The position numbers and the translations under genes were made by a program. From assembly GCF_019931275.1 (NCBI RefSeq), contig NZ_JAIOTY010000002.1:124001-188000 (forward strand): a stretch of DNA of 64,000 nt, written 5' to 3'. The DNA is from Nitratidesulfovibrio sp. SRB-5. GTDB taxonomy: Bacteria > Desulfobacterota > Desulfovibrionia > Desulfovibrionales > Desulfovibrionaceae. Below are positions 1 to 35,718 of the stretch, one piece after another; position 1 is the first letter of the stretch, and each line of letters starts with the position of its first letter. The notes below the pieces were generated by a model that saw nothing but the letters and a program-made list of their open reading frames with translations, was not told where the DNA came from and searched no databases.

Positions 1-1227
1 GCAGCAGGCCTTCATGTGGTTGTCGCCAAGGCGGATGCGCTGGGCGCGGTCGGCCATGGTGAGGGACAGCCCGGGGATGTCGTGCAGCAGGTCCAGCGCG
101 CGCCCGAAGAACGTGGCGGCCTTGGCGGAAAAGCCCATTTCGCGCAGCAGCAGCCCCAGGTTGAGGTTCAGCGCGGGGGATTCCTGCAGCATGGAGACGC
201 GGCACAGGCTGTCGAAGGCGCCCTTGCCGTCGCCACCGCGCAGGCGGACGCTGGCGGTCTTCATGTGCAGCAGGTCCGCGGGGTACCCCAGCGCCCCGAG
301 TTCTTCAAGGCAGGCATCGGCCTCCGCCGGGGGGCAAATGGCCAGCCGTTCCAGCAGGGCCATGATGCGTTGGCTGGGTTCGGAACAGAACATCTGGCCG
401 AACCGGCGCAGATAGTGGCGTACGGCGGGGTGCGCCAGGTGCCGGTTGTCTTCCATGTAATGCCGGCTTCCCGCCAGCTCCGAGAAGACGATGTCGTATC
501 CGGGAAAGTAGTGGACGTTGTCGTGGCGGCGGCAGAATTCGTTGACGGCGGCGTAGAGCGTGAACTTCGAGGCGTTGTTGCCCTGTACGGCATCTTCGTC
601 GCGGTAGGTCACGCGCAGCGGGGTGGGACAGACGCCAACGATGATCTGCATGCGCGGGTTGAAGCGCAACAGCAGGTCGCGCGTGCTTTCGAGGTAGGCG
701 ATGTTCTCGGCCACCGTCAGGAAATGGACCTCGAGGTCGGTGGATTCGCACAGCACGCCGGGGTAGGGGTGCAGGATGAACTCGTCCGTCCGGCGGTTCT
801 TCCACACCTCGATCAGGCTCGGCGTCAGGATGATGACCTCGGTGCGGGACAGGGCTTCCCGCACGTTGCGCTCGATGGCGTTTATCTTGGCGCGGCAGGC
901 GTCGATATCCTGGTCGTAGACGCGATGATGGTTCAGGTCGGTGTACCCGCTGGTGCCGAAAAACAACTGCTCCCGGCTGGTCAGCCGGTTTGCGTGGGCG
1001 TTGTCTATCTCGCGCAGGATGGAGTGGCAGGAATACTTGTACCCTGCCTGCGGCTCCAGGGCGTTGAAGTGGTACATGTCCAGAAACAGTTGCAGATACT
1101 CGCCGAAGCAACTGCCAAGGTTCATGACCGGGGTGTCGTGGGCTATCAGCGGCACATGCGGCAGGTGAACCGCCCGTTCCTCAAGCGGCCATTGGCGGTA
1201 TGCGGGAAATCTGTCGAAGTATTCCAT
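1..1227 (-). CDS. GSCFA-domain protein (C-terminus beyond window edge)
   Basis: The minus-strand frame is open from an ATG at 1227 to the first base of the window: 409 residues without a stop, so the C-terminus is missing. Residues 37-41 read LGSCF, the signature that names the GSCFA family (SGNH/GDSL-hydrolase-like fold, often found in surface-polysaccharide loci). A second stretch near residue 136, TPSLIEVWKN, fits the family. The last ~100 residues are helical and TPR-like (NLNLGLLLREMGFSAKAATF). It lies 28 bases downstream of the preceding gene, as the last visible member of the long glycan operon. By analogy with SGNH enzymes it could add or remove an acyl group on a glycan, but substrate and direction are unknown. 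Family assignment is fairly firm; function is inference. Confidence 0.75.
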   Translation of the reverse strand, partial: MEYFDRFPAYRQWPLEERAVHLPHVPLIAHDTPVMNLGSCFGEYLQLFLDMYHFNALEPQAGYKYSCHSILREIDNAHANRLTSREQLFFGTSGYTDLNHHRVYDQDIDACRAKINAIERNVREALSRTEVIILTPSLIEVWKNRRTDEFILHPYPGVLCESTDLEVHFLTVAENIAYLESTRDLLLRFNPRMQIIVGVCPTPLRVTYRDEDAVQGNNASKFTLYAAVNEFCRRHDNVHYFPGYDIVFSELAGSRHYMEDNRHLAHPAVRHYLRRFGQMFCSEPSQRIMALLERLAICPPAEADACLEELGALGYPADLLHMKTASVRLRGGDGKGAFDSLCRVSMLQESPALNLNLGLLLREMGFSAKAATFFGRALDLLHDIPGLSLTMADRAQRIRLGDNHMKACC

Positions 1228-1255
1228 GGCTCGTTTCGCTGTCGCCCGGGAAGCA

Positions 1256-2374
1256 TCATGCCCCGGGGTGGGCCGTGGTGGACTGGATGATGTCCAGAAC
1301 GCGGTGTTCAAGGTCCGGGGCCAAGGCGACGGCCTGCTCGGCGAAGCGGAGCATGTGCAGCCTGTTGCCCGCGTGATGGGCTTCTAGCGTCTTCGCCACC
1401 AGCATGAGCGCCAGCAGGCGGTTGTCGTCGGGCGCGGTGGACTGCGAAAGGCTCCATATGTCTTCCCCGAGCTGGAAGATGCGCCGGAGTTCCTCCGGCG
1501 TCTTGCGATGGCCCACGCCAAGGTGCGTGGCCAGAAAGGCTTGCTGCTCCGGAGAAATGTCTTCGCGTGGCGTCTTGAACAGTTGCGCAAGATGCTCAGT
1601 TACGGGAAGCTGTTCTATGTCGCCGGAAATCTGGCTGTAGTAGAGCTGGTGGTTGCTGTTCCACGTGGTCGTCGTGGTAATGTGAAAATATGGTTTCCCA
1701 AGACTTGTGCAGTGTCCTATACATGATCCTGGGGTCATGGATGCCGTTATGGTGGCCGGTTCGATTATTTCACGAAGGCGGCGATAGAAGTTTTTATCAT
1801 ATATGTGTCCGGCACATTGCACCGTGAATCCTTTCCTGATGTATTCCTCATGCAGCCCGCGCTGGATGTCCCTCCAGTACATGCACACGCGCACCGTGTC
1901 GAAATCCTTGCCCATTCGTTCCAGCGTGGCGCAGATTTCCGCAACGTCGTAATCGTTTTCCACCCAGTGCGTGGAGTGGCTGGGAAAGAACAGCAGGTTG
2001 CGTCCGAACGCGGCGTGCAGTTCCTCCAGCCTTTCGGGGCGCGGAGGGGATACGTATTCTATCAGGGGCCCCAGCGCGAAGCATGCCTTGTTCGTGGCGC
2101 TGTGAATGACGTCGAACCGGCTGGGCGACCAGCAGCAATAGACGAAGAACGGCGCGTTGATTTCCGTGGCCCAATTGGAATTTCCGAACCGTACGCCATG
2201 TTCGATGATGCTCCGTAACGGCTTTTCGCCCGCAAGGCCGACGTAGCGCTTGAGCATGGAGGCATGCCCGTAGAAGTCGTTGACCTGGAAGGTTTCCACC
2301 GTCTTGAACGGTCGCTCGGCGGCAAGGCGGGCCAGCGTTGCGCTTGTGGAAGCTGCGGCGGACAGGGTGTACAT
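1256..2374 (-). CDS. conserved hypothetical protein of glycan operon (372 aa)
   Basis: I do not recognise this protein with certainty. The start is the ATG at 2374, preceded by GTGGAG at a good distance; an in-frame extension to 2530 has no such site and a composition unlike a real protein. The sequence is globular, without signal peptide or membrane segments. A glycine/serine-rich loop (MTPGSCIGHCTSLGKPYFHI, around residues 243-262) precedes a threonine run and is reminiscent of the nucleotide-sugar-binding end of GT-B enzymes, where a conserved G-x-P segment follows. Its place between the PseG-like gene and the GSCFA gene suggests a glycosyltransferase or other carbohydrate role. That is context only. 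Spacing to the upstream PseG gene is about 160 bases, looser than elsewhere in the operon. Confidence 0.6.
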   Translation of the reverse strand: MYTLSAAASTSATLARLAAERPFKTVETFQVNDFYGHASMLKRYVGLAGEKPLRSIIEHGVRFGNSNWATEINAPFFVYCCWSPSRFDVIHSATNKACFALGPLIEYVSPPRPERLEELHAAFGRNLLFFPSHSTHWVENDYDVAEICATLERMGKDFDTVRVCMYWRDIQRGLHEEYIRKGFTVQCAGHIYDKNFYRRLREIIEPATITASMTPGSCIGHCTSLGKPYFHITTTTTWNSNHQLYYSQISGDIEQLPVTEHLAQLFKTPREDISPEQQAFLATHLGVGHRKTPEELRRIFQLGEDIWSLSQSTAPDDNRLLALMLVAKTLEAHHAGNRLHMLRFAEQAVALAPDLEHRVLDIIQSTTAHPGA

Positions 2375-2533
2375 GTAAACTCCACGGATACGGGCGAATC
2401 GTTTGTGTGACGCCGAGGGGGCAGCGATCAGAGGGGACGCGGGAGGCCGTCCGAGCGCAACCGGGCAGGACGTGTGGGGCATGCGCGAACATGCCGGACG
2501 GACGGGTCTACCGGCATCCTGCCGCCCCATGGA

Positions 2534-3565
2534 TCATGCCGACGGCAGGATGCGTCGGAGCGTTCGGACGAACAGCCCTACGTCCCATGCGGCAAGGCCC
2601 GCTGGTAACATTCCCCTGGCCAGAAATGCCGCGATGACGGCGGCTTCGTTGTCGGTGCTGGCAATGGCCAGCGTGGTGAGCCCGAGCGCCGTGCATTCGT
2701 ACAGCGTGCGCCCACCCGCGCAGAGCACCAGATCCGCGTCGCACAGAATGGGCAGCAGGCGTTCCGGCGCCCTGATCACCGTGGCTGCAAGAGATTCCGC
2801 CAGGGGTTCGATGGGGTTTTCGGCTGCAAAACCCGGACCAAGGATGACCGTCAGGGAAAGCGGCAGCGCGGCCTTCTCCAGCGCGGCAAGCACCTTGCCG
2901 GTAAGGCCCGTGGGGTCCGACCCGCCGAAGGTCAGGACCACGCGCGGTCGGGTGTCCGGGCTGGGGGGAGAGCTTGGGCGACCGGGCCGGACGGGGCTGG
3001 ACTGGGAGTCTGGCATGGCCGGGGCGCCCGGTACACTTGACGCGGCGCGGCCACGGCAACGGCGGGAAAGCGCCATGTCTTCCGGCGGCATGAGGAAGTG
3101 CTTCGGCCCCAGCAGCGCCGTGCGGACCAGGGGGTACATGCCCGGCGTCGCGAGGATGGAGGAATTGAGCACCACGTCTGCGGCGATGTGCGAGCGCCCG
3201 GTATCGTCAAGGTACGCCAGCAGCAGGCCCGCCGAACGGGCAGCCTCCAGCAGGTCCGGCTCCGGGTCGTAGGGCAGGTCGATCACCAGCGTCCGGGCGG
3301 ACGTCCGGCGCAGCGCATCCGGGGTGGGGGGAAGCACGCGTTCGCCCTGGCTGCGGGCGTAGGCCACGCCATCGGGCAGGCCGCCCATGAGCAGGGCGGT
3401 ATCGGTCCCCCGCTGGCGCAGCTCGCGCGAGAGCATCAGGCAGCGCGACAGGTGGCCGTACGACAGCCCCGGCGCGCGCCCCGCGTCCACCCGGAAAAAT
3501 ATCGTATCCGCCGTGCCGGTGCCCTCAAGCAGCAGGTCGCGGAATTCGGGCGAGGATGTCGTCAA
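2534..3565 (-). CDS. PseG/SpsG-type nucleotide-sugar hydrolase
   Basis: The 343-residue protein resembles PseG, which hydrolyses UDP from a 2,4-diacetamido-trideoxy sugar in pseudaminic acid synthesis. It has the GT-B-like plan of that family: near residues 26-45 RVDAG followed by GLSYGHLSRCLML, containing the catalytic-type G-x-GH-x2-RC motif, and in the second half LTFGGSDPTGLTGK and CDADLVLCAGGRTLYECTALG, the loop that contacts the nucleotide. A proline/serine-rich stretch (about residues 165-200) separates the two lobes and is longer than usual. Its ATG lies inside the upstream SpsF-like gene (41-base overlap), so the two are probably translationally coupled. Adjacent SpsF- and SpsE-like genes support a CMP-nonulosonate route. 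The exact sugar substrate cannot be inferred. Confidence 0.82.
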   Translation of the reverse strand: MTTSSPEFRDLLLEGTGTADTIFFRVDAGRAPGLSYGHLSRCLMLSRELRQRGTDTALLMGGLPDGVAYARSQGERVLPPTPDALRRTSARTLVIDLPYDPEPDLLEAARSAGLLLAYLDDTGRSHIAADVVLNSSILATPGMYPLVRTALLGPKHFLMPPEDMALSRRCRGRAASSVPGAPAMPDSQSSPVRPGRPSSPPSPDTRPRVVLTFGGSDPTGLTGKVLAALEKAALPLSLTVILGPGFAAENPIEPLAESLAATVIRAPERLLPILCDADLVLCAGGRTLYECTALGLTTLAIASTDNEAAVIAAFLARGMLPAGLAAWDVGLFVRTLRRILPSA

Positions 3566-4205
3566 AGTCCAGCAACTCCTCTGGGCTGCTGCCCCCGGCT
3601 AGGCGCAGCGCGGCGGCGTAATCGTCGGGCGTGTCCACGGTCAGCCGGACGTCCGGTCGTTGCCACGCCGTGGGAATGGAGGGGGTGCGGATGGCGAACG
3701 CCCCCGGCTGCCGCAGCATGCGCAGGTTGATGTGTTCGCGCTCCGCCGGGTCCGGCGCCGTTGCGGCCACCCGGCGCAGCGCCCCGGCGCTGAAGGCGTC
3801 CACGCCCGCGCCATGGGGGCACCCCTCTGGCAGGGCCACGTAGTCCGCGCCTTGGGCAAGGCCATCCAGCGCAAGGCGCAGCATCTCCAGACTGGTGAAG
3901 GGATTGTCCGCCGTCACGCGCACCGCGCCAGCCGGGACAAAACAGTCCAGACAGCGCAGGTAGCGGGACAGGACGTCTTCGCATTCGCCCCGGACCACGG
4001 GCACGCCGAGCGATGCGGCCAACTCGGCCAGGGCATCGTCCTCGGGCCGGGTCGTGGTGGCCAGGCAGCAGGGCGCATCCAGCCCGCCAGCCAGCAGGCG
4101 GCGCAGCAGAAAGGCCAGCATGGGCACCCCGGCAAGGGGCTTCAGGGCCTTGCCGGGCAGCCGTGTGGAGGCCGCGCGGGCCTGGACGACCACGATGGCG
4201 CGCAT
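3525..4205 (-). CDS. SpsF/NeuA-type cytidylyltransferase
   Basis: A 226-residue nucleotidyltransferase of the SpsF family (spore-coat polysaccharide and legionaminic/pseudaminic clusters). The N-terminus VVVQARAASTRLPGKALKPL is the family signature: a nucleotide-binding loop with conserved R and K. VRVTADNPF near residue 96 takes the place of the metal-binding D-x-P segment, and LTVDTPDDY near residue 190 is the usual C-terminal motif. Members activate a nonulosonic acid with CTP before transfer. The gene starts 10 bases after the SpsE-like gene and overlaps the PseG-like gene, so the three are one translational unit. Whether it accepts a legionaminic, pseudaminic or a modified acid is unknown. 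Confidence 0.85.
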   Translation of the reverse strand: MRAIVVVQARAASTRLPGKALKPLAGVPMLAFLLRRLLAGGLDAPCCLATTTRPEDDALAELAASLGVPVVRGECEDVLSRYLRCLDCFVPAGAVRVTADNPFTSLEMLRLALDGLAQGADYVALPEGCPHGAGVDAFSAGALRRVAATAPDPAEREHINLRMLRQPGAFAIRTPSIPTAWQRPDVRLTVDTPDDYAAALRLAGGSSPEELLDFDDILARIPRPAA

Positions 4206-4215
4206 GCGGACCTTC

Positions 4216-5220
4216 CTAGGCGTTCCTGCCGTCCACGTCGCCCGGGCTCAGGGGGGCATGGGCGGTGAGCGGTCGTACGACCCTGCGCCCCAGCACGGCT
4301 TCGACGGTGCGCGGCGTCAGTTCCGATTCGGGGCGGCAGAACAGCAGGTCGGCCATGGTCAGGGTTTCGCCGGGGGCGATGTCCCGCGCCGCGTACACGC
4401 CGCGGCGGTAGGCGGCGGCATGCTGGCGGTCGGGCCGCCGGTTGAAGAAGTCCTGTCCGCCGAACATGGGGGCCATGCGGCGCATTTCGTCCACCAGGGC
4501 CTGTATGCCCGCAGGGTCCAGGGAGTGGCCGTGGTCGCCGCCGGGAGTGGCAGTGTCCAGCGTGAAGTGGGTTTCGATGATGTCCGCGCCCACGCAGAAG
4601 GCCGCCAGGCAGGCGCTGGAGCCGGGGTAGTGGTCGGACCAGCCCGTGGGCAGTCCGAAGGCGCGCTTCAGCTCGCCGATGGCGGCCAGATTGCAGTCCC
4701 CGGCCTCTGCCGGGTACAGCGACAGGCAGTGCAGCAGGGCGATGTCCGTGGCACCGGCGCGTCGCAACTGGTCGATGGCGGTGCCGGTTTCGTCCAGGGT
4801 GGCCATGCCGGTGGACAGGATGATTGGCTTGCCGGTACGCGCCACGGCGTCCAGCAGATAGGGCGTGGCCAGGTCCATGGAGGCGACCTTGTAGGCCGGT
4901 ACCCCCACGGCTTCCAGCATGGCTACGGCATCCAGGCTGAAGGGCGTGGAAAAGAAGGCGATGCCCGCCTCGCGGGCCGTGTCCGCCAGCGCGCGGGCCT
5001 GTTCCGGGCTCATTTCCGCAGAGCGGATCAGCTCGAAGTGCGGCGCAGTGGGCAGGGCCAGGTCCGCCGCCCGGAACGTCTGGAACTTGACGGCGTCGGC
5101 GCCGGATGCGGCAGCCGCGCGGATCATGGTCCGGGCCTGGTCCAGGCTGCCTTCGTGGTTGAACCCCACTTCGGCAATCAGCAGCGGAAGTCCCGTTTGC
5201 TCGCGCTTGCGCAGATTCAT
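4216..5220 (-). CDS. NeuB/SpsE/PseI-type nonulosonate synthase
   Basis: A 334-residue N-acetylneuraminate-synthase family enzyme, condensing phosphoenolpyruvate with a six-carbon aminosugar to a nine-carbon acid. Visible family motifs are EVGFNHEGS, DAVKFQTF, FFSTPFSLDAV, YKVASMDL, ILSTGMATLDE, ALLHCLSLYPA, GWSDHYPGS and IIETHFTLD, giving a full TIM barrel with its metal-binding histidines. The last ~60 residues form the SAF (antifreeze-like) lid with RGVYAARDIAPGE. The start is the ATG at 5220 with CGGAG upstream; an in-frame extension to 5505 is low-quality sequence antisense-like in composition. It follows the methyltransferase gene by 17 bases. This is one of two NeuB paralogues in the window; the other (32213-33397) belongs to a different branch by eye. 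Confidence 0.9.
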   Translation of the reverse strand: MNLRKREQTGLPLLIAEVGFNHEGSLDQARTMIRAAAASGADAVKFQTFRAADLALPTAPHFELIRSAEMSPEQARALADTAREAGIAFFSTPFSLDAVAMLEAVGVPAYKVASMDLATPYLLDAVARTGKPIILSTGMATLDETGTAIDQLRRAGATDIALLHCLSLYPAEAGDCNLAAIGELKRAFGLPTGWSDHYPGSSACLAAFCVGADIIETHFTLDTATPGGDHGHSLDPAGIQALVDEMRRMAPMFGGQDFFNRRPDRQHAAAYRRGVYAARDIAPGETLTMADLLFCRPESELTPRTVEAVLGRRVVRPLTAHAPLSPGDVDGRNA

Positions 5221-5237
5221 GACATGCTCCGTGGCGA

Positions 5238-6023
5238 TCAGAGATCGAAGACGTAGATGGTGTACTTGTCGGCCCCTTCGAAGCCTTCCCAGCGGTCCAG
5301 CCGGGTGGATGTCCGGCGCTCGTGCTCGCGGAAGGCCTGGCCGAAGTCGTGGTAGGTCAGTATCTTTGCTGGCTTGACGCCCAGCGTGGCGTACAGGTCG
5401 TCGTAATCGTGGGAGACGATGTTGGTCTTGAAGGCGCGCTTGTCCACCAGGTCCTTCGTGGCGTGGCGGGCGGACCATTCCACGTGCACGATGCGCCTGC
5501 GGCACACCCGCACCATTTCGGACAGCGCGTGCAGGATGATGCCCGGATGCAGGTTCATGAACACGCCAAGGGTGAAACCGACGTCGAAGGCGTCATCCTT
5601 GAAGGGCATGGCGCAGGCATCCGCCTGGGCGGCACCGATGTCCAACTGGGGCTTGTAGTCGCGCATGTTGCGCAACTGGGGCAGGCTGAAGTCCAGACCG
5701 CCCACGCGCATCCAGGGGAATTCCTCCTTGGCGCGCTTGACGTTCCAGCCGAAGCCGCAACCGGCCTCGAAGGCCGATTCGTAGCGCTGCTCGGCCAGTT
5801 CCCGCATGATCAGGTCCTGAAAGAACACCTCGCGGTCAAGGTAGCCCGACGCCAGGATCTCGTCGCGGTAGGCGTTGCCGCGCCAGGCCCAGTAGTCGCG
5901 CTGGTCGCGCAGCTTGGGCAGGGTGATGCCGAAGGTCTTGTACAGGAATTCCTTGAGGCGGTATTCCACCTTGAACAGCTCGATACCGCAGACGGTTTTC
6001 CAGTGCTTGTCCTGCGCGCCCAT
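5238..6023 (-). CDS. SAM-dependent methyltransferase (class I)
   Basis: A 261-residue class I methyltransferase. The SAM-binding loop is EAGCGFG at residues 86-92; VGGLDFS follows as the ribose-binding acidic strand, then DACAMPFKDDAFDVGF, the classic motif II region of methyltransferase type 11 proteins. The ATG at 6023 sits one base after the TGA of the upstream radical SAM gene, indicating coupled translation, and supports this start over the ATG at 6074. The N-terminal 80 residues are helical and have no obvious domain. The tight pairing with a radical SAM enzyme suggests that both act on the same intermediate or that the methyltransferase methylates the finished nine-carbon sugar; the substrate is not deducible. 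Confidence 0.8.
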   Translation of the reverse strand: MGAQDKHWKTVCGIELFKVEYRLKEFLYKTFGITLPKLRDQRDYWAWRGNAYRDEILASGYLDREVFFQDLIMRELAEQRYESAFEAGCGFGWNVKRAKEEFPWMRVGGLDFSLPQLRNMRDYKPQLDIGAAQADACAMPFKDDAFDVGFTLGVFMNLHPGIILHALSEMVRVCRRRIVHVEWSARHATKDLVDKRAFKTNIVSHDYDDLYATLGVKPAKILTYHDFGQAFREHERRTSTRLDRWEGFEGADKYTIYVFDL

Positions 6024-6024
6024 A

Positions 6025-7056
6025 TCAGGCCTGTTCCTTGCTTTCGTAAGTGTAGTCCTCGCGGCGTTCATCACCCAGCTGGACGGCTTCCTTCTTCTTC
6101 TTGGCCCCGTGGTGGCACGCGGCGCAGACAGCGCTTTCCAGCCGCCGCCCGGTCAGGTGCAGGGTGCGCTGGTGCTCCTGCAACACGTCCCATGCCTGCT
6201 TCACGCCGGTTTCCCGCACGTTGCCCAGGATTTCCTGCATGGTGAAGTCGGACGGACACTTGAGGTAGTTGCCGGAACTGGTGATGCACAGGCGGTGCCA
6301 CAGGCGCGGGCAGACGAAGGCGGGGTCCGGCACCACGGTGTTGTGGTCGAAATGCATGTCCGGGTTGTAGGCCACGCGGTCCACGATGCCCTTCATGGTG
6401 CGGATGTAGGCCTGCGGATCGTCCTTGATGGCCGACCAGATGCCCTGCACGTTGAGCAGGGTGTGCGCGCCCAGTTCGTCACGCACGCGGCGCAGGGTCT
6501 TCAGCTTGCGCAGCGAGTCCTCGTACTTCAGCGGAACGCGCACGGCTTCGTAGTTGGCGCCCAGGCCGTCGAAGCTCATGGTTATCCAGTCCACCCCGGC
6601 GCCAATGATGCCTCTGGCCAGGTCTTCGGTGATGGGGCCGCCGTTGGTGTTGATCCAGACTTCCCGGACGCCCGCCGCTTTGGCCAGCCGGACCATTTCC
6701 ACGATGTCCGGGTGCAGCAGCGGTTCGCCGCGCATGCTGAACTTGAGGGTGAACAGCCCGTGCCGACCGCACTCCTCCACGATGGAACGGTACATGTCCA
6801 GCGGCATGAAGCCGTTTTCGCCAATGTCCATGTACTGGCGGAAGCAGTGGGTGCACTTGATCTGGCACACGCTGCTGACCTCGATGTCGACGTTGAGCGG
6901 GAACGGGGCCACCTTGCGCTTTCTGGGGTAGGTGTTCCAGGCGTAACGGTTGGCAAGGTAGGCCAGCCGCTTGCCGCTGCTGCGGCGCCATTCGTTCCTC
7001 AGGTATTCCCACTGCGTTTCGCAGCTGAACTGGACACGGGTCTCGGACGTTTTCAT
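6025..7056 (-). CDS. radical SAM enzyme with SPASM-like C-terminus (first of pair)
   Basis: A 343-residue radical SAM protein. The [4Fe-4S] motif is C64-x3-C68-x2-C71 (VCQIKCTHC). FSMRGEPLLHP supplies the GGE-like SAM-binding motif and WITMSFDGLG the later barrel strand. Near the C-terminus, CPRLWHRLCITSSGNYLKCP and a terminal CAAC cluster look like a SPASM-type auxiliary iron-sulfur site. It is clearly paralogous to the product of 7685-8959: both share the FPL-x-VD-x-E lead-in, S-x-RGE-x-L-x-HP and SFDG-x-G-x-x-YE-x-IR/VR-x-P. The stop overlaps the start of the formyltransferase by ATGA on one side and touches the methyltransferase on the other. Members of such pairs may perform dehydration, epimerisation or C-methylation on sugars; the reaction here is unknown. 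Confidence 0.85.
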   Translation of the reverse strand: MKTSETRVQFSCETQWEYLRNEWRRSSGKRLAYLANRYAWNTYPRKRKVAPFPLNVDIEVSSVCQIKCTHCFRQYMDIGENGFMPLDMYRSIVEECGRHGLFTLKFSMRGEPLLHPDIVEMVRLAKAAGVREVWINTNGGPITEDLARGIIGAGVDWITMSFDGLGANYEAVRVPLKYEDSLRKLKTLRRVRDELGAHTLLNVQGIWSAIKDDPQAYIRTMKGIVDRVAYNPDMHFDHNTVVPDPAFVCPRLWHRLCITSSGNYLKCPSDFTMQEILGNVRETGVKQAWDVLQEHQRTLHLTGRRLESAVCAACHHGAKKKKEAVQLGDERREDYTYESKEQA

Positions 7057-7691
7057 GAGGGACTTCCTTCCATGACAGGGGCATAGGTGGCCAGGGACGC
7101 ATCCTGCGGCACAGGATGGAACGCCGGGTCCAGCAAATTTTCGACAGTGCCGCGCACCAGGGGCGCGGCGCCTTCCTTCAGGGTGTCCAGCAGGTCCCCC
7201 AGGGTTTCGTCCCCGCGCAGGGCCAGCCGTACCTGGTGGATGATGGGGCCGGTGTCCACGCCGTCATCTACGAAATGGCTGGTCAGGCCGGTTGCCGGAT
7301 CGCGGTTGCGCAGCACGTGGTGATGCGGCGCAGGCCCCCGGTAGGCGGGCAGAAGCGAGGCGTGCACGTTCACCGTGCCCAGCCTGGCGGCGGTGTACAC
7401 CGGGCGCGGCAGCAGGCGCATGTAGGCGTGCAGCCACAGCACGTCCGCCTTCAGGTCGCGGACCAACTGGCCCAGGTCGGCTGGCTGCACCTGCCGCTCG
7501 TCCCATACGGACAGCCCGGCGGCCCTCGCCCGGCGGCATGCCGCGTCGGCCCACGGGTCGTCCGCCACGGGGGCGCACCGGGTGACCACGCCCAGCAGGT
7601 CCACCTCGGGGCAGGCCAGCAGGGCATCCAGCAGCCGTTCTCCCAACCCCCAGTTGGCGGCCAGCAGCACGCGCAGGGGGGCGGTTACCAT
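7053..7691 (-). CDS. sugar N-formyltransferase-like protein
   Basis: A 212-residue formyltransferase. The core matches the methionyl-tRNA formyltransferase catalytic domain: residues ~105-130 NVHASLLPAYRGPAPHHHVL (catalytic histidine in HASLLP), then TSHFVDDGVDTGPI with the catalytic aspartate. It lacks the ~100-residue C-terminal tRNA-binding domain of housekeeping Fmt, so it more likely transfers a formyl group from formyl-tetrahydrofolate to a sugar amino group, as known for VioF/FdtF-type enzymes. The ATG at 7691 overlaps the end of the upstream radical SAM gene by 7 bases, and its stop overlaps the next start (ATGA). An in-frame extension to 8720 is antisense-like and rejected. The folD gene in this genome provides the one-carbon donor pool. 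Confidence 0.8.
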   Translation of the reverse strand: MVTAPLRVLLAANWGLGERLLDALLACPEVDLLGVVTRCAPVADDPWADAACRRARAAGLSVWDERQVQPADLGQLVRDLKADVLWLHAYMRLLPRPVYTAARLGTVNVHASLLPAYRGPAPHHHVLRNRDPATGLTSHFVDDGVDTGPIIHQVRLALRGDETLGDLLDTLKEGAAPLVRGTVENLLDPAFHPVPQDASLATYAPVMEGSPS

Positions 7692-8959
7692 TTGCGTTCC
7701 ACGATCTGCGCAATGGTGACGTTGGGGTCGCTTTCCGAGCCATGGCGGCATTGCTGGCAGCTGCCGATATCCATGCGCCGGCCTTCGTGGTGCAACTGAC
7801 GGACCTGGTCCATTTTTTCCGAGTGCCACATGTCGCGGATGGACAGGCTGCGGGCGTTGCCGAGGGCGATGTCGGTGGCGTTCCAGCCCGTGCAGCATTG
7901 CCCCACGCCGTCCCAGCCGATGACGATGCGTTCCCACGGGTACTGGCAGACAAAGCCTTCCTTCAGCACCATGGGCCCCTTGAAGTTGATGTACGGGTTC
8001 TTGACCATGTAGTCCGCCACCTCGGCCATGGTGCGCTGGTAGGCGCCGGGGTCGTGGCTGATGGCGGGCCAGACGGTGCACGTGCGGATTTGCGGCAACG
8101 ACGAACCGGCGGCCTCGCGCTTGCGGCGCAGCAGACGCAGGCGGTCCATGCTTTCGGAAAACCTGGCCGGGGCGCGAATGGTTTCGTACACCTCGCCGAT
8201 GCCGTCGAAGGAAACGGCCACGTAGCTCACCCCGTTTTCCACCAGGCAGTCGCTGATGCGTTCGTCGATGTAGAAGGCGTTGGTCAGGAACGACACGTTG
8301 GGAATGCGGGCCGCCGCGTAGGCGATCATTTCCGTGATGCGCGGGTGCGTCAGGGTTTCTCCGCGCCAGGAAAGGCGCACGGAGTACAGGTCGTTGGCGG
8401 CGCACTCGTCGATGAGGTCGCGGAACAGCCCCATGTCCATCTGGCCGGTGCTTTCCAGCATGTCCCGGTAGCACATGGGGCAGCGCATGTTGCAGGTGCT
8501 GGCCGATTCCAGGTCCACGTGCAGCGGGAACGGCGTGACGATCCGGTGCGTGGGCGCCAGGTGCCAGGCCAGCCGGTTGAAGACGTAGTCGACAAAGCGG
8601 CCCTGGTTCAGCGTGAACAGCCAGGCCCGTTCGGGGGTGTCGAAGGGGTGCTGGTGAAAGTTGACGTGCAGCCCGTCGTTCCGGGGGGCGGACGGCTGCC
8701 CGGCCAGTTCGGCGGCGCAATGGCGGTGGCAGGCCGCCACGCCCGGCGGCAGCAGCGGGGCGAAAGCCTCCACGAGGGGCAGGTAGGGGGCGTGGAACGA
8801 CGTCTGGATACCCCCGGGGCCCGGGCGCAGGCCGGGTACGTCGGCCAGGCGCGACAGGAACAGCTTCAGCTCGGGATGCTCCTGGACCGCGGGAGACGGA
8901 GGATTGTCCCAGGAAAGATGCAGTTCGCCCGAGGTTCCGGCGTAGGTGCAGCGCAGCAT
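7685..8959 (-). CDS. radical SAM enzyme with N-terminal extension (second of pair)
   Basis: A 424-residue radical SAM protein with the cluster motif C156-x3-C160-x2-C163 (TCNMRCPMC). LSWRGETLTHP and VAVSFDGIG follow in barrel order. The C-terminal GWDGVGQCC and CQQCRHG cysteines suggest a SPASM/twitch auxiliary cluster. About 145 residues precede the barrel and have no recognised fold; they are absent from the paralogue at 6025-7056. The gene lies 13 bases after the GNAT gene and overlaps the formyltransferase start by 7 bases. Substrate and chemistry are unknown; co-translation with a formyltransferase and a GNAT enzyme argues for aminosugar modification rather than peptide maturation, for which no precursor peptide is visible. 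Confidence 0.83.
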   Translation of the reverse strand: MLRCTYAGTSGELHLSWDNPPSPAVQEHPELKLFLSRLADVPGLRPGPGGIQTSFHAPYLPLVEAFAPLLPPGVAACHRHCAAELAGQPSAPRNDGLHVNFHQHPFDTPERAWLFTLNQGRFVDYVFNRLAWHLAPTHRIVTPFPLHVDLESASTCNMRCPMCYRDMLESTGQMDMGLFRDLIDECAANDLYSVRLSWRGETLTHPRITEMIAYAAARIPNVSFLTNAFYIDERISDCLVENGVSYVAVSFDGIGEVYETIRAPARFSESMDRLRLLRRKREAAGSSLPQIRTCTVWPAISHDPGAYQRTMAEVADYMVKNPYINFKGPMVLKEGFVCQYPWERIVIGWDGVGQCCTGWNATDIALGNARSLSIRDMWHSEKMDQVRQLHHEGRRMDIGSCQQCRHGSESDPNVTIAQIVERKW

Positions 8960-8972
8960 GAAAAACGACCCC

Positions 8973-9776
8973 TTACATGGTGAACGTTAGGTTCCGGAAA
9001 TGGAGCACGTCGTACCGGCGCAAGGGGCGACACCCCACCGCACCGTACAGCGCGGCCGCCGCACGGTTTTCGGCGTGCGCCTCCACCAGCAGGGATCGCT
9101 GGTGCCCATGGCGGGCGATGACCGCTTCCAGCAGCCGCCGACCGACCCCCTGACCCCTGGCCCAGGCCAGTACGCCCACGATGTGCAGGCGGACGGTTTC
9201 CGGATCAAGGTGCAGCGTGGCAATGCCTGCCGGTCGGCCCCCGAGCGTGGCCACTGCCGTCTCCTGGGCGAAGCCCTGGCAATGGTCGGTGATGGAAGCT
9301 TCCCACAGGGCAGCGGCACGGGTGGTACTTATTTCCGGATCCAGGTGATACCGGCTGTATAGCATGTCCCATGCCAAAGGGAGAAACGGCGTGGGATCAG
9401 CTGTGCCTGCGTAAAGCGTGACGTCGTCCCGATCATCCCTGTCCCCCCGTGCGTCACGGGTGCCACGGACGCCGGACGCGCTGGCGGGGCGGTGGTGCAC
9501 CACCTCTACGCCCAGCATTTGCACGCGCCACCCCGGCAACACGGCCTGCATTGCAGACGGTTCGCAGAGTCCGGCAGGCAGTTTTCCGACCACAAGGGCC
9601 GTATGCGCGGCGTCATGCAGTGCGGTCGCCATCGCCGTCAAAAGTTCGTCTGGCAGCCATTCGTCCGGCCACGTGTCATGCGGGCGGGCCTGTACGGGGG
9701 GCTCCCAGTCCAGGCGGGAGCACGGCAGACCGAGTTGGGCGGAATCCCAGGGCAATGGCGTGAGAATGGCGTTCAT
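8973..9776 (-). CDS. GNAT-family N-acetyltransferase
   Basis: A 267-residue protein whose C-terminal half is a GNAT fold. The acetyl-CoA loop reads VLAWARGQGVGRRLLEA (the R/Q-x2-G-x-G/A motif), followed by AHAENRAAAALYGAVGC, the typical last helices and strand. The N-terminal ~120 residues contain LPWDSAQLGLPCSRLDW, typical of WecD/TDP-fucosamine acetyltransferase-like enzymes, so a nucleotide-aminosugar substrate is plausible. The ATG at 9776 overlaps the stop of the WbqC gene (ATGA). A long upstream in-frame extension to 10502 is not used because it is antisense-like and overlaps WbqC completely. Together with the DegT aminotransferase it would install an acetamido group. Confidence 0.82.
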   Translation of the reverse strand: MNAILTPLPWDSAQLGLPCSRLDWEPPVQARPHDTWPDEWLPDELLTAMATALHDAAHTALVVGKLPAGLCEPSAMQAVLPGWRVQMLGVEVVHHRPASASGVRGTRDARGDRDDRDDVTLYAGTADPTPFLPLAWDMLYSRYHLDPEISTTRAAALWEASITDHCQGFAQETAVATLGGRPAGIATLHLDPETVRLHIVGVLAWARGQGVGRRLLEAVIARHGHQRSLLVEAHAENRAAAALYGAVGCRPLRRYDVLHFRNLTFTM

Positions 9777-10453
9777 GCGGCGGCCCCGGAGGCGGACGGC
9801 GCGCCATGTCCCATCATCAGGCCGTCCAGCGCCGAGAGCCCCGCCTCGAACGCGCCATGCAACTGCGGATACACGGGATGCTCGAAGGCCTGCCATTCGA
9901 CGCGCACGCCGTGTTCCCGGAACAGCGACTCGTCCAGGTACGCCCGCGACCCTGTGCCCGTGAGGTAGGCGGTTGCGCCATACAGGCGGCATAACTCCAC
10001 GAGCCGCGCCGTGCCCTGCTGCCGCACCGCGCAGGCCGAGGCCAGCGCCATGGGCGTGGTGATGCCGAAGTGCGCGGCAAGCCAGCGCAGCAGATCCACG
10101 TTGAGGTCCACAAGCCGCTGGTGGGGGCGCGCGTAGAGGGATTCCAGCTGCGGAAACAGTTCCGCGAAGCGCGGGGCGCGGCCATAGGCGGCGCGGATGG
10201 CCGCAAGGTGCTTGCGTTTCCAAGCGTCGCCGTCCAGCTCCACCTCGTTGATGAGCTGGTCGTAGCGGCCCTTCTGCTGCACGGGCACGGTGAGCCAGGC
10301 CGGACCAGCGGCGGTCTTGATCCTGTCGCGGTGGTGCCAGCCACGCCGCAGGAACTGCACGTCGTCGAGCACGATGTACAGGTCGCTGGCGCGCCAGCGG
10401 TCGAAAAAGCCCAGCCAGGGCATGAAATCGGGCTGGTGGATGGTGACGCGCAT
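9773..10453 (-). CDS. WbqC-family protein
   Basis: A 226-residue WbqC-like protein. The N-terminus VTIHQPDFMPWLGFFDRW is the family hallmark, followed by DDVQFLRRGWHHRDRIK and LTVPVQQKGRYDQLIN. WbqC proteins occur in O-antigen and nonulosonic acid gene clusters and their biochemical role is unresolved; a ligase or acyl-type transfer to sugar amines has been considered. The start is the ATG at 10453, 5 bases after the stop of the deacetylase gene; the in-frame extension to 10489 would run into that gene. The stop overlaps the GNAT start. Nothing in the sequence indicates membrane association. Confidence 0.82.
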   Translation of the reverse strand: MRVTIHQPDFMPWLGFFDRWRASDLYIVLDDVQFLRRGWHHRDRIKTAAGPAWLTVPVQQKGRYDQLINEVELDGDAWKRKHLAAIRAAYGRAPRFAELFPQLESLYARPHQRLVDLNVDLLRWLAAHFGITTPMALASACAVRQQGTARLVELCRLYGATAYLTGTGSRAYLDESLFREHGVRVEWQAFEHPVYPQLHGAFEAGLSALDGLMMGHGAPSASGAAA

Positions 10454-10458
10454 GCGGT

Positions 10459-11085
10459 TCAGATGAGATAGCGGACGATTTCGAAGCATTCCGCGTAGTC
10501 AACGCCGATCTTCTGTCCGTCGTTGGAATTAAGTCGGGTGAAGAAGTCGACCCACTGGTAGCGCACCCGTTCCAACTCCGACTTGTGGGACTTGATGACC
10601 TCTATCTTCCGGTCCATGACCCCGGAAATGTCGGAGTAGATGTTGCCCGCGAAGGTGTGGGGGGTGTCGTAGTGGTTGCTGCGGTACATCAGCACGCGGG
10701 GCACATGGCGCGAGGCCATGATGGTGTTCTGCGCGGCGCATTGGTGGTCGCGGTGCAGGTCGTGGATCCAGTGGCAGTAGACCGTGTCTATCTTGCGGTC
10801 CTTGATGAGCCTGTTCAGGGACATGGTGACTTCTTCGTTGAACGGCAGGTAGAACGTCCTGTAGTCCAGCGTCAGCAGTTCCGCGCCCATGATGGCGGCA
10901 GCGGCCTGGCCTTCGGCCAGTGCAATGTCGTCCGAGCGCACCATGTTCCCGTTGGGGTCGGTGTAGCCGGAACTTGTCAGCACCAGCAGGGTGACGTTGT
11001 CACCCTTGCGGACGTGATTCATCAGGGTGCCGCTGCATCCCAGTTCCACATCATCGAAGTGTGCGCCGACCGCCAGAATGTTCAT
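10459..11085 (-). CDS. PIG-L/LmbE-family deacetylase
   Basis: A 208-residue metal-dependent deacetylase of the PIG-L/LmbE family. The metal-binding motif at residues 8-12 is AHFDD (family consensus AHPDD; the proline is phenylalanine here), and the third ligand motif HRDH is at 111-114. These enzymes remove an acetyl group from N-acetyl sugars. The gene overlaps the aminotransferase start by four bases at its 5' end (ATGA-type) and is followed by WbqC. In this operon it could free an amino group which the formyltransferase or WbqC protein then re-acylates, a deacetylation/re-acylation logic that fits the gene set but is inference. Confidence 0.85.
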   Translation of the reverse strand: MNILAVGAHFDDVELGCSGTLMNHVRKGDNVTLLVLTSSGYTDPNGNMVRSDDIALAEGQAAAAIMGAELLTLDYRTFYLPFNEEVTMSLNRLIKDRKIDTVYCHWIHDLHRDHQCAAQNTIMASRHVPRVLMYRSNHYDTPHTFAGNIYSDISGVMDRKIEVIKSHKSELERVRYQWVDFFTRLNSNDGQKIGVDYAECFEIVRYLI

Positions 11086-12227
11086 GTCGCGTCCTGCTGC
11101 AAAAGGTGTGTCCGCAACGCGCCGACAACGTCATGGATCATGGATTCGGTCATGGAAGGAAACAGGGGGAGTGTCAACTCGCGGGCGCAGATCCCGGCGG
11201 CGACGGGTGTCTCGCGAAACTGGTCCGCATAGGCGGTGAAGGACTGCGGGGCAGGGTAATGGATCGACGTCTGTATGCCCTCGCCGCGCATGCCAGCCAT
11301 GACGGCGGCCCGGTCCGGGCCCTGCGGCAGCAGCACGGGCAGGATGTGGCAGGAGGACTGGCGGGTGTCGTCGCTGCTGTCCCAGGGCCGGGACAGGCCG
11401 GGCACGGAATCCAGGGCGCGGGCGTAGCAGTCCGTCAGGTGCCTGCGGCGGTGGTTGTTGGCCGCCAGCTTTGCCAGCTGCACCCGGCCAAGGGCCGCGC
11501 CCATTTCGGTGATGCGGCAGTTGAGCCCCGGCGAGAGCACGTCGTAGCTGTCCGCGCGGCCCTTGTGGCGGTCGAGGGTCAGCGTGGTCATGCCGTGCGA
11601 GCGGAACAGGCGGGCCTGTTCGATGCGCCGGGAATCGCGCGATACGAACATGCCGCCTTCGCCGCAGGACAGGTTCTTGTTGCTGAAGAAGCTGAAGCAG
11701 GCCATGTCCCCGAAGGTGCCGCACTGCCTGCCGTCAAGGGTGGCGCCCACGGCGTGGGCCACGTCTTCCACCAGTACCAGACCGCGCTCGCGGCACAGGG
11801 CCACGATGGGCTCCATGTGGCAGGGCTGCCCGGCATAGTGCACCACCACCACGGCACGGGTGCGGGGGGTAAGGACGCGGGCGATGGTGTCGGCGTTCAT
11901 GTTCCAGTCGCGCGGCGAGGCGCAGTCCGCCAGCACGGGGGTGCCGCCGCACATGGCCACCACGTTGGCGTCGGCCACGAAGGTCAGGGCCGGGACGACC
12001 ACCTCGTCGTCGGGGCGCAGCCCCAGCTGGTGCATGGCGGCATGCAGGGCGGCGGTGCAACTGGACATGGCCAGGCACTGGGCGCCCTGCCCCAGCATGG
12101 CGGCGAATTCCTCTTCGAACAGCCGGGTCTCGTCGCCCATGGTCAGCCAGCGCCGCCGCAGCACGGCCAGCACGGCGTCCTCCTCGCGGGCGTCGAAGTC
12201 CAGGTCAAACAGCGGCACGCGCCACAC
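11082..12227 (-). CDS. DegT/DnrJ/EryC1/StrS aminotransferase
   Basis: A 381-residue PLP-dependent sugar aminotransferase. Features include SSCTAALHAAMHQLGL, EVVVPALTFVADANVV, HYAGQPCHMEPI, LVEDVAHAVGA and the PLP-lysine in FFSNKNLSCGEGGM (K184); the C-terminal SIHYPAP closes the active site. It starts with GTG at 12227, preceded by AAGGAG, and overlaps the nucleotidyltransferase gene by 23 bases. Such enzymes transaminate the 4-keto group of a nucleotide-sugar made by a dehydratase. The LegB-like dehydratase two genes upstream gives it a substrate, so a LegC-like role in making a 4-amino sugar is likely. Confidence 0.9.
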   Translation of the reverse strand: MWRVPLFDLDFDAREEDAVLAVLRRRWLTMGDETRLFEEEFAAMLGQGAQCLAMSSCTAALHAAMHQLGLRPDDEVVVPALTFVADANVVAMCGGTPVLADCASPRDWNMNADTIARVLTPRTRAVVVVHYAGQPCHMEPIVALCRERGLVLVEDVAHAVGATLDGRQCGTFGDMACFSFFSNKNLSCGEGGMFVSRDSRRIEQARLFRSHGMTTLTLDRHKGRADSYDVLSPGLNCRITEMGAALGRVQLAKLAANNHRRRHLTDCYARALDSVPGLSRPWDSSDDTRQSSCHILPVLLPQGPDRAAVMAGMRGEGIQTSIHYPAPQSFTAYADQFRETPVAAGICARELTLPLFPSMTESMIHDVVGALRTHLLQQDAT

Positions 12228-12948
12228 GCGGGGCTCCTTGTCTGAGGAACATGGTGGGGTTGGCCTCGAACATGTCGATGGCCGTCATGTAGTCGTCGGG
12301 GCGTCCGATATCCAGCCAGTACCCGTTGTAGCGGTAGACATGCACGGCGTGCCGGGCACGCATCATGTCCAGCACCAGGTTGTCGAAGCCGTAGGCCTCG
12401 TCGTCGGGGATGAAGTCGAGGATGCGCCGCGATGCCATGTAGATGCCCATGCTGACGTTGTAGTGGACCACGGGCTTTTCGCGGAATCCGTGCAGCGTGT
12501 CATCGCCGTTGAGTTCCAGCACCCCGAATTCCGAGCGCATTTCACGGGGGCAGGTGGCCACCGTGAAGGTGTTGTCCCGCGTGGCGTGGTGGGTGTACAG
12601 GGCGCCGAAATCCAGGTCCGTGAGCACGTCGCCGTTCATGATCAGGAAATGTTCCGGCATGTCGCGGATAAGCTTGAGGGGGCCCATGGTGCCCAGCGGC
12701 TTCTTTTCCATGGAATAGCTGATGTGCACCCCCCAGCGCTTGCCGGAGTTGCAGTAGGCCTTGATGATTTCCGCCTGGTGGTTCACGGCCAGGGTGATGT
12801 CGGTGAACCCGGCTGTGGCCAACTGGCGGATGACCACCTCGAGGATGGGGTACGGGCCTATGGGCATCAGGGGCTTGGGCAGCACCACGGTATAGGGCCG
12901 CAGCCTGCTGCCAAGGCCGCCCGCCAGGATGATCGCGTGCTTAGACAT
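12205..12948 (-). CDS. sugar-phosphate nucleotidyltransferase
   Basis: A 247-residue NTP-transferase with IILAGGLGSRLRPYTVVLPK at residues 6-25, the G-x-G-x-R-L-x-P-x-T-x2-x-P-K nucleotide-binding signature. LIMNGDVLTDLDF supplies the metal-binding aspartate, and YWLDIGRPDDYMTA is the usual C-terminal motif of GDP/dTDP-sugar pyrophosphorylases. The start at 12948 is placed inside the end of the LegB-like gene (overlap of 8 bases), giving coupled translation. Next to a LegB-type dehydratase it may be the PtmE-like enzyme that makes GDP-GlcNAc in legionaminic acid synthesis, but a role with another hexose-1-phosphate is equally possible. Confidence 0.85.
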   Translation of the reverse strand: MSKHAIILAGGLGSRLRPYTVVLPKPLMPIGPYPILEVVIRQLATAGFTDITLAVNHQAEIIKAYCNSGKRWGVHISYSMEKKPLGTMGPLKLIRDMPEHFLIMNGDVLTDLDFGALYTHHATRDNTFTVATCPREMRSEFGVLELNGDDTLHGFREKPVVHYNVSMGIYMASRRILDFIPDDEAYGFDNLVLDMMRARHAVHVYRYNGYWLDIGRPDDYMTAIDMFEANPTMFLRQGAPRVARAAV

Positions 12949-13966
12949 TGTACGCTCCCGCGGTGTACCGCTTGAGGTTGCCGGGGTCCTGGAACCATTG
13001 GGCAGTGATGGCAAGGCCGCTCCGGAATCCTTCGCGGCCCGCGTATTCGGGCGTCCAGCCCGCCAGGGTGCGGGCCAGTGTGTTGTCGCACCACAGGCGC
13101 TCCACTTCGCTGCCCGTGGGGCGCAGGCGCTGGGCGTCGCAGACGATCTCGAAGTCCACGCCCATGGCTTCGCCGATGAGCCGGGCCGTGTCCTCTATGG
13201 AAATCTCGAAGTTGCTGCCGACGTTCACCACCCTGCCCAGTACGCCGGGGGCCTTGGCCATGGCCATGAACCCCCGCACCGTATCCGCCACGAAGTTGAA
13301 GTCACGCGTGGGGGCCAGCGCGCCAAGCTTGATCCGCCGCTGTCCGGCGGCCAGCTGGGTGATGATGGTGGGGATCACCGCCCGGGTGGACTGGCGCGGG
13401 CCATAGGTGTTGAACGGGCGGATGACCGTCACCGGCGTTCCGAAGGCGTGGTGGTAGGACAGGGCGATCTGGTCCGCCCCGATCTTGCTGGCCGAATACG
13501 GAGACTGCGGTTGCAGGGGGTGGTCTTCCGTGATGGGGACGAACCGGGCCGTGCCGTACACCTCGCTGGTGGAGGTGTGCACCAGCCGGGGCACGTCCAG
13601 GTCGCGGCAGGCCTGCACCACGTTCAGGGTGCCGATGACGTTGGTGTCCGCATAGGAGCGGGGCGCCACGTAGGAATAGGGAATGGCGATGAGGGCTGCC
13701 AGGTGGAAGACCACGTTGCACCCGGCCACGGCCCGGCGCATGAAGTGTTCGTCGCGCACGTCGCCCGCGATGATCTCCATGTCCCGCGCATGGGGCGAGC
13801 CGTCCAGCCAGCCGTTGCTGCTGAAGGAGTTGTACTGGACCATGGCGCGCACGTTGTCGCCGCCAAGCAGCAGGGCTTCGGCTAGATGGGAGCCGATGAA
13901 GCCGTCGGCTCCGGTGACGAGTACGGTGCGGCCCGTGGCTGCGAGTGGCGATGCGGTGTTTTCCAC
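12941..13966 (-). CDS. legB: LegB-like NAD-dependent 4,6-dehydratase
   Basis: A 341-residue extended short-chain dehydrogenase. GADGFIGSHLAEA at residues 19-31 is the NAD-binding G-x2-G-x2-G loop. VQYNSFSSNGWLD, LAALIAIPYSYVAPRSYADT, TSTSEVYGTARFVPITEDHP and SPYSASKIGADQIALSY (Y-x3-K pair) match very closely what I know of LegB, the GDP-GlcNAc 4,6-dehydratase of legionaminic acid synthesis. It starts with GTG at 13966 with GAAGAGAG upstream and is the first gene of the operon; a promoter must lie in the long gap 13967-14726. The ortholog assignment is strong at family level; the exact nucleotide (GDP versus UDP) is not visible. Confidence 0.85.
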   Translation of the reverse strand: MENTASPLAATGRTVLVTGADGFIGSHLAEALLLGGDNVRAMVQYNSFSSNGWLDGSPHARDMEIIAGDVRDEHFMRRAVAGCNVVFHLAALIAIPYSYVAPRSYADTNVIGTLNVVQACRDLDVPRLVHTSTSEVYGTARFVPITEDHPLQPQSPYSASKIGADQIALSYHHAFGTPVTVIRPFNTYGPRQSTRAVIPTIITQLAAGQRRIKLGALAPTRDFNFVADTVRGFMAMAKAPGVLGRVVNVGSNFEISIEDTARLIGEAMGVDFEIVCDAQRLRPTGSEVERLWCDNTLARTLAGWTPEYAGREGFRSGLAITAQWFQDPGNLKRYTAGAYNV

Positions 13967-35689: not shown

Positions 35690-35718
35690 TTGACGCACTT
35701 GCCGCCGGATGGTCTACA
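35690..35718 (+). promoter_or_regulatory. possible promoter of peptide ABC operon
   Basis: TTGACG (35690-35695) and TCTACA (35713-35718) are separated by 17 bases, about 140 bases before the binding-protein gene. The -10 is only 3 of 6. A second TTGACA at 35664-35669 has no acceptable -10. The rest of the gap 35511-35857 shows nothing else. Confidence 0.3.

Follow-up and report, generated by a model that had tools for sequence, protein, structure and literature searches.

Description

What sugar is built by a fifteen-gene operon at one end of a sequenced stretch of Nitratidesulfovibrio sp. SRB-5? The stretch, 64,000 nucleotides long and called the window below, is G000:C2:124001-188000 (contig NZ_JAIOTY010000002.1) in a 4.12 Mb assembly of 11 contigs. 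On its minus strand, from position 13966 to the left window edge, lie 14 complete genes and one gene cut by the edge, and the operon continues leftward beyond it. Judged by sequence similarity, the operon very probably encodes a nonulosonate (NulO) pathway for a bacterial sugar related to sialic acid, and it points to an uncharacterised cell-surface sugar. Our main reading, to which we give a probability of about 60%, is that it makes a cytidine monophosphate (CMP)-activated nine-carbon 2-keto sugar acid, remodels the substituents of that acid and supplies it to a surface glycan that varies between strains. If so, surface sugars made by a widespread, transferable tailoring set could be overlooked or wrongly assigned in screens aimed at standard sialic, legionaminic or pseudaminic acid, and the set would supply enzymes in which amide exchange and radical oxidation on complex amino sugars could be tested.

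Gene content

The genes of the operon within the window are as follows.

12941..13966, minus strand, LegB-type NAD-dependent 4,6-dehydratase (TIGR04180)
12205..12948, minus strand, sugar-1-phosphate nucleotidyltransferase, NTase (PF00483)
11082..12227, minus strand, DegT-family aminotransferase (PF01041)
10459..11085, minus strand, PIG-L N-deacetylase, BshB1-like (PF02585)
9773..10453, minus strand, WbqC-family protein with a predicted BshC-like ligase fold
8973..9776, minus strand, GNAT N-acyltransferase (PF00583, 40 bits, residues 167-245)
7685..8959, minus strand, rSAM1, radical SAM/SPASM protein with a twitch domain (PF04055 and PF13186)
7053..7691, minus strand, formyltransferase (FMT) of the Formyl_trans_N family (PF00551)
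6025..7056, minus strand, rSAM2, radical SAM/SPASM protein with a twitch domain, the hallmark protein of the set
5238..6074, minus strand, S-adenosylmethionine-dependent methyltransferase, MT (PF13649, 42.6 bits)
4216..5220, minus strand, NeuB-family nonulosonate synthase (NeuB, 248 bits, and SAF domain)
3525..4205, minus strand, SpsF-like CMP-sugar cytidylyltransferase (PF02348, 73.8 bits)
2534..3565, minus strand, PseG/SpsG-like nucleotide-sugar hydrolase (TIGR03590, below cut-off)
1256..2530, minus strand, 424-amino-acid (aa) protein with no Pfam or NCBIfam match
1..1311, minus strand, GSCFA-family protein whose C-terminal part lies left of the window (PF08885, 147 bits)

A sequence-only reading of this DNA had described, leftward from 13966 to the edge, fifteen genes on the minus strand that overlap or abut almost everywhere, and that layout was confirmed, with all the families it named found (PseG below its cut-off). 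The 14 gene junctions measure -56 to +17 bp once the starts of NTase, WbqC and NeuB are corrected, and -56 to +13 bp with the initial starts; family scans of these three proteins were run with starts a few codons off, and the coordinates listed are those of the corrected starts. Internal stops are absent from the 14 complete frames, and G+C content at third codon positions is 0.73-0.90.

The probable nonulosonate core

The general marks of a nonulosonate pathway, a NeuB-family synthase with conserved residues and a CMP-transferase (PF02348), are both present. The NeuB residues E17, K45, K111, H197 and H218, which have catalytic roles, are invariant among 12 aligned sequences. The steps of the standard legionaminic (Leg) and pseudaminic (Pse) acid routes are established, and of the proteins compared with their NCBIfam models only LegB scores above its cut-off (TIGR04180, 498.1 bits, cut-off 475), with the aminotransferase, hydrolase and synthase below all. 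The PseB, PseC, PseG and PseI cut-offs are all missed by the operon proteins: LegB reaches 59.5 of 407.75 bits with the PseB model; DegT (PF01041, 350 bits) is nearer PseC (282 bits, cut-off 423.5) than LegC (TIGR04181, 189 bits, cut-off 420); the PseG-like hydrolase has no Pfam match and 84.2 of 153.55 bits with TIGR03590; and NeuB reaches 272 of 340.25 bits with PseI and 287 of 399.65 with NeuB_NnaB. For NTase (PF00483, 137 bits), the best NCBIfam match is mannose-1-phosphate guanylyltransferase at 132 bits, far below the cut-off of 440. As to the Campylobacter-type Leg pathway, the LegC cut-off is missed and the cassette has no LegG hydrolysing 2-epimerase. With these cut-offs missed and LegG absent, a plain Leg or Pse pathway was rejected. 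Because the NeuB residues are nonetheless kept, the core is read as a nonulosonate pathway of unsettled stereochemistry; on the best reading, LegB, NTase, DegT, GNAT, the PseG-like hydrolase, NeuB and SpsF would make a CMP-nonulosonate by neither standard route. NTase would make a nucleoside diphosphate-N-acetylglucosamine-type sugar, LegB would dehydrate it at C4/C6, DegT would aminate and GNAT N-acylate it, after which the PseG/SpsG-like hydrolase would strip the nucleotide, NeuB would condense the hexose with phosphoenolpyruvate, and SpsF would add CMP.

The lack of a LegG/NeuC-type gene in the cassette raises another explanation, in which a radical SAM enzyme stands in for LegG by epimerising a carbon to give the NeuB substrate, the product being a Leg stereoisomer. 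The sole Epimerase_2 gene of the genome lies outside the cassette and is WecB-like (207.1 of 210.15 bits), with no NeuC model match at E 1e-20 and, by BLAST against loci L044-L073, one weak match, in L058. A possible precedent is NeoN, the epimerase of neomycin C, itself a radical SAM enzyme. Against this, rSAM2 is also found beside a PseC/PseG/PseI pathway, which needs no such epimerase, and the six-enzyme Leg route of Bacillus subtilis, which includes SpsG, has no radical SAM enzyme in the account given in PMC7439481 (this and the other PMC papers are cited from parts of their text). Replacement of LegG in this way is quite improbable.

Two further NeuB genes bring the nonulosonate synthase genes of this genome to three. 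The second lies at 32213-33397 of the window, with a cytidylyltransferase-like neighbour (recognised by eye) at about 28843-31017, and is conserved across the genus genomes checked; the third lies at G000:C2:54124-54819, some 70 kb left of the window.

Conservation across genera and phyla

The comparison of gene order in relatives that the sequence-only reading had proposed shows the same order in other genera, so the gene run is more than chance. In G175, from another genus, the genes run LegB-NTase-DegT-PIG-L-WbqC-GNAT-rSAM1-FMT-rSAM2-MT-NeuB-SpsF-PseG-GSCFA as in the window, with rSAM1, rSAM2 and PIG-L 75-82% identical to the window's proteins; the 424-aa gene was not found in that operon. 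In G199, from a third genus, the order is that of the window up to NeuB, and the stretch gave no SpsF or PseG match. The nearest relative, the metagenome-assembled genome (MAG) Desulfovibrio sp. Rs511_bin20 (L059, contig G005:C32), encodes 12 operon proteins at 85-98% identity and the 424-aa protein at 63%, and retains only remnants of the methyltransferase and GSCFA genes.

The set is patchy, since rSAM2 occurs in few genomes of the genus, order and class. An orthologue is present in two of eight genomes of the genus (own included); 21 of 297 genomes of the order match at E 1e-25, six of them (own included) at 70% identity or more; and a class-wide profile search gave 7 of 348 above 600 bits. 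A scan of a genome collection yielded 15 rSAM2 loci (46-98% identity), whose record titles name delta- and other Proteobacteria, Desulfobacterales, Omnitrophota, Woesearchaeota, Nitrospinaceae, Nitrospirae, Pelagibacteraceae and Planctomycetes. Together with the operon itself, G175 and G199 these make 18 loci, which were searched with tblastn; seven are stretches of at most 12.4 kb, each of the pairs L059/L044, L060/L045 and L061/L047 is one contig and counts as one locus, and some of the queries came from loci that are counted. NeuB or the cytidylyltransferase is found in 14 of the 18, in several phyla. Gene by gene the counts are formyltransferase 15, PIG-L 13, WbqC 13, cytidylyltransferase 12, NeuB 11, DegT 11, PseG 10, MT 9, LegB 8 and NTase 8. 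An rSAM1 orthologue (at least 52% identity) is present in 10 loci and a distant rSAM1-like gene (26-28%) in five more (L069-L073); the raw count of 18 includes L066, L067 and L068, where the match falls on rSAM2 itself. PIG-L adjoins WbqC in nine of the 12 loci with both and stands apart from it in L060, L063 and L069.

A woesearchaeal locus (L066) carries rSAM2, MT, PIG-L, WbqC and a formyltransferase-GNAT fusion with a Pse-type pathway, in which PseC (547 bits, cut-off 423.5), PseG (155.8, cut-off 153.55) and PseI (501, cut-off 340.25) are above their cut-offs and the PseB-like enzyme (351, cut-off 407.75) is below. Because it pairs the set with such a pathway, the tailoring set looks portable between nonulosonate backbones. 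The earlier description of a nonulosonate pathway with extra tailoring genes is thus upheld, the extras travelling with NulO genes across phyla, and the tailoring enzymes probably act on that NulO or on its precursor.

Alternatively, two sugars might be made, with LegB, NTase, DegT and FMT giving a formylated 4-amino-4,6-dideoxyhexose and NeuB, SpsF and PseG a plain nonulosonate, while PIG-L, WbqC and the radical SAM enzymes act on the hexose or on another residue of the glycan. Solved proteins of the formyltransferase family do include enzymes named for nucleoside diphosphate-4-amino sugars, such as ArnA and GDP-4-amino-4,6-dideoxymannose formyltransferase, and L057 and L058 combine DegT, WbqC and radical SAM matches without a NeuB match. 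Across the 18 loci, however, NeuB and the CMP-transferase accompany rSAM2 in 11 and 12, yet LegB and NTase in only 8 each. A simpler version on a Rhizobium megaplasmid also argues against a separate hexose: LegB (61%), NTase (59%), a second short-chain enzyme, rSAM2 (33%), NeuB (38%), SpsF (39%), WbqC (45%) and PIG-L (44%) stand together there, and DegT has only a distant match (29%), 2.3 kb upstream of LegB. We consider two separate sugars unlikely and retain a single, tailored nonulosonate.

Some loci carry a divergent second NeuB-like gene (26-29% identity), beside an rSAM2-like gene (L049:8456-9493, L050:12981-14021, L051:10749-11786) or downstream of MT (L064:12740-13798), perhaps for a second keto-acid sugar.

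A variable slot in the genus

Five genomes of the genus were compared at this site, and the cassette is present only in G000 and G005. In G003, G006 and G007 the block from the solute-binding protein (35690-37420) through the second NeuB to the methyltransferase at 19625 is kept at 62-95% identity, and G006 and G007 also keep the histidine kinase at the opposite flank. The roughly 14 kb between the flanks in these last two lacks the cassette; the genes that could be matched there resemble the locus's double glycosyltransferase in G007, and NTP3, Glyphos and DegT in G006. The adjoining stretch in G003, which ends short of the other flank, has low-identity WbqC-, DegT- and radical SAM-like genes and no NeuB match. 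Such a hypervariable slot is the pattern of a surface-glycan locus, whose glycan may belong to LPS, to capsule or to flagellin. A single Maf/MptE-like gene lies on another contig of the genome.

A slot in which gene sets are swapped also invites the view that the core makes ordinary Leg or Pse, with the additional genes riding along in a surface-glycan locus as passengers that have nothing to do with it. The frames, however, overlap or abut, rSAM1, rSAM2 and PIG-L are highly identical in G175, the gene order is fixed across genera, and the genes co-occur repeatedly in distant phyla. Passenger genes are a very improbable explanation, and on the conserved gene order it was rejected.

Of the genes around the operon, 760 bp upstream lies one for a 909-aa double glycosyltransferase, followed by a nucleotidyltransferase, a CDP-glycerol-type transferase and a methyltransferase. 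At the other end, the full GSCFA frame is 512 aa (L004:17774-19312) and is followed, before the strand changes, by an 828-aa frame that looks like a glycosyltransferase on inspection and resembles the locus's double glycosyltransferase. GSCFA also occurs in G090 and G175, and among loci L044-L073 the 424-aa protein has homologues only in G005 and G090. In G005 the GSCFA gene is cut to an N-terminal piece (L044:2144-2320) beside the glycosyltransferase-like frame.

Candidate tailoring enzymes

PIG-L (PF02585, 66.5 bits) has as its best NCBIfam match the BshB1 model TIGR04001 (77 bits, E 1.7e-21), below the cut-off of 182.5, and its residues H9, D11, D12, H111 and H114 are invariant in 13 sequences. 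PIG-L and WbqC are each the sole match of their family in the genome, and in a single comparison the predicted structure of WbqC appears to match the bacillithiol ligase BshC, at 12% identity. The chemistry of bacillithiol synthesis is known, as are the roles of these PIG-L residues, and the pair suggests a deacetylate-then-acylate reaction; on the predicted fold, we put it at even odds that WbqC is an amide-forming ligase. PIG-L would remove an N-acetyl group from the precursor or product, and WbqC would form an amide between the exposed amine and a carboxylic acid, most probably an amino acid. The deacetylation and re-acylation proposed from the sequence alone are thereby refined to a candidate deacetylase/ligase pair, beyond formyl transfer alone.

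The formyltransferase (PF00551, 98.5 bits) is nearest to methionyl-tRNA formyltransferases, its best NCBIfam match being Fmt at 106 bits, below the cut-off of 201.5. Residues N108, H110 and D146 are invariant in 10 sequences and correspond to the Asn-His-Asp triad of Formyl_trans_N formyltransferases. Its target would be an amino group, either on the sugar itself or on the attached amino acid. MT matches the pseudaminic acid-associated methylase model TIGR03587 weakly (37 of 112 bits). The methylation foreseen in the sequence-only reading looks dispensable, since the gene is broken in the nearest relative and is found in 9 of 18 loci, and it would be an optional step of the unit.

Both radical SAM proteins have the twitch pattern, a CX3CX2C motif and four auxiliary-cluster cysteines arranged C-x17-C ... 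CxxC. The residues are C156/C160/C163 and C338/C356/C401/C404 in all nine rSAM1 sequences, and C64/C68/C71 and C249/C267/C311/C314 in all 16 rSAM2 sequences; rSAM1 has about 140 residues ahead of its radical SAM domain. For both profiles the nearest solved structure is BtrN, with whole-sequence E-values of 7e-15 (rSAM2) and 2e-12 (rSAM1) over two domains each, and the auxiliary cysteine spacing, 18/44/3 in rSAM2 and 18/45/3 in rSAM1, compares with 18/45/3 in BtrN (read off the printed alignment). BtrN carries out a two-electron oxidation of an aminocyclitol (PMC9012708). Because of the BtrN match, the cysteine spacing and the chemistry of BtrN, sugar oxidation is the leading reading, which narrows the earlier proposal of a radical modification to a BtrN-like twitch type favouring oxidation of a sugar carbon. 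That at least one of the two enzymes performs such an oxidation is plausible, at slightly under even odds; the two would oxidise or otherwise radically alter amino-sugar carbons as BtrN does.

Both proteins score best in NCBIfam with TIGR04317, a model for maturases of tungsten oxidoreductases, though they reach just 83-86 of 380 bits. A role as peptide or metalloenzyme maturases was weakly excluded, no systematic search for a small peptide gene having been made. A third radical SAM gene, at 20820-22307 in the upstream glycan block of the window, has no SPASM match and is 84-92% identical in four genus relatives. Elsewhere, a carbamoyltransferase directly precedes the rSAM1-like gene in L069 (6070-7863, by Pfam) and L072 (3310-5082, by similarity), while in L069 and L065 rSAM2 is followed by genes for B12-binding radical SAM proteins.

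Several observations weigh against a tailored, oxidised nonulosonate. Four of the 18 loci have neither NeuB nor CMP-transferase, three of them being contigs under 5.3 kb, and the 21 kb L067 has rSAM2 alone (L067:9995-11080, 53%) among genes that look like housekeeping genes by eye. WbqC and related radical SAM genes occur in glycan stretches without a NeuB match (L057, L058). WbqC gave no sequence match in the PDB, and a profile search returned three chance-level matches and no BshC match; a single structural comparison at 12% identity speaks for a shared fold and not for function. Single-domain E-values to BtrN are modest, at best 1e-7 (rSAM2) and 1e-5 (rSAM1), and BtrN may rank nearest simply because structures are available for few enzymes of this kind. 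Finally, MT is broken and shortened in G005 (L044:6470-6830), where its neighbours are 96-98% identical, though in this MAG an assembly fault is possible.

Searches of the open-licence literature, which lacks most subscription papers and is weak ground for absence, found no paper linking radical SAM enzymes with nonulosonic or legionaminic acid, and none linking pseudaminic acid with WbqC or joining viosamine, glycyl and O-antigen. Of the papers there that mention WbqC, none is by its title on WbqC function, and the parts of PMC8743553 and PMC6309461 covered hold no relevant link between NeuB and radical SAM enzymes.

Taken further, the operon could apply a bacillithiol logic to a sialic acid-like sugar: PIG-L and WbqC would swap an acetyl group for an amino acid, the Fmt-like enzyme would N-formylate the amino group of that amino acid, and the two BtrN-like radical SAM dehydrogenases would act oxidatively on the sugar. 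The products would be a class of nonulosonic acids, oxidised and carrying N-formyl-aminoacyl groups, found in many bacteria and in one or more lineages of archaea. This fuller scheme is tentative and in its entirety doubtful; if true, WbqC would be a general family of amino-sugar acyl ligases.

Comparison with known systems

The operon shares with the Campylobacter-type Leg pathway (LegB/C/H/G/I/F) the LegB equivalog and the aminotransferase, GNAT, NeuB and cytidylyltransferase roles, but it lacks LegG, misses the LegC and NeuB cut-offs, and adds PIG-L, WbqC, two radical SAM enzymes, a formyltransferase and a methyltransferase. The nearest precedent for the SpsE/SpsF/SpsG route is the B. subtilis sps pathway, whose six enzymes (SpsM/C/D/G/E/F) include SpsG, SpsE and SpsF (PMC7439481); we infer that the PseG-like, NeuB and SpsF-like proteins play matching parts. 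SpsM prefers UDP-N-acetylglucosamine, whereas the operon has LegB and a dedicated nucleotidyltransferase, and its tailoring genes are not among the six sps enzymes as described there.

Neither formylation by itself nor a methylated, extended NulO is without precedent. Halorubrum sp. PV6 makes 5-N-formyl-legionaminic acid, and its nonulosonate genes include a formyltransferase candidate (PMC6137143); that cluster has a NeuC-type LegG, unlike the operon, and neither 'radical' nor 'PIG-L' appears in the portion of the paper covered. The flagellin of Shewanella oneidensis (sfmABCDE) carries a probable nonulosonic acid (274 Da) with a 236 Da moiety and optional methyl groups (PMC3765264), an extended and methylated NulO. 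Among the sfm genes are those for a methyltransferase and a predicted carboxylate-amine ligase, the latter of ATP-grasp type and not WbqC, and the word 'radical' does not occur in the text covered.

The BshB/BshC pair of bacillithiol synthesis resembles the operon in that PIG-L is closest to BshB1 and the predicted fold of WbqC appears closest to BshC; in contrast, the BshB1 cut-off is missed, no sequence similarity between WbqC and BshC was found, and the context is a nonulosonate operon. BtrN, the dehydrogenase of the butirosin pathway, is a distant relative of the radical SAM proteins, whose profiles match both its AdoMet and its twitch domain and share its arrangement of auxiliary cysteines, rSAM1 having its extra N-terminal residues. 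Amino acids are found on nonulosonate amines in nature, as in Leg5Ac7NMeGlu and Leg5Ac7AcAla (PMC2674064, PMC7371886), the aminoacylating gene going unnamed in the parts of these papers covered. Later change of a nonulosonate also has a precedent in EpaA/EpaB, proteins with reductase or dehydrogenase domains that convert Pse to its 8-epimer (PMC12053666).

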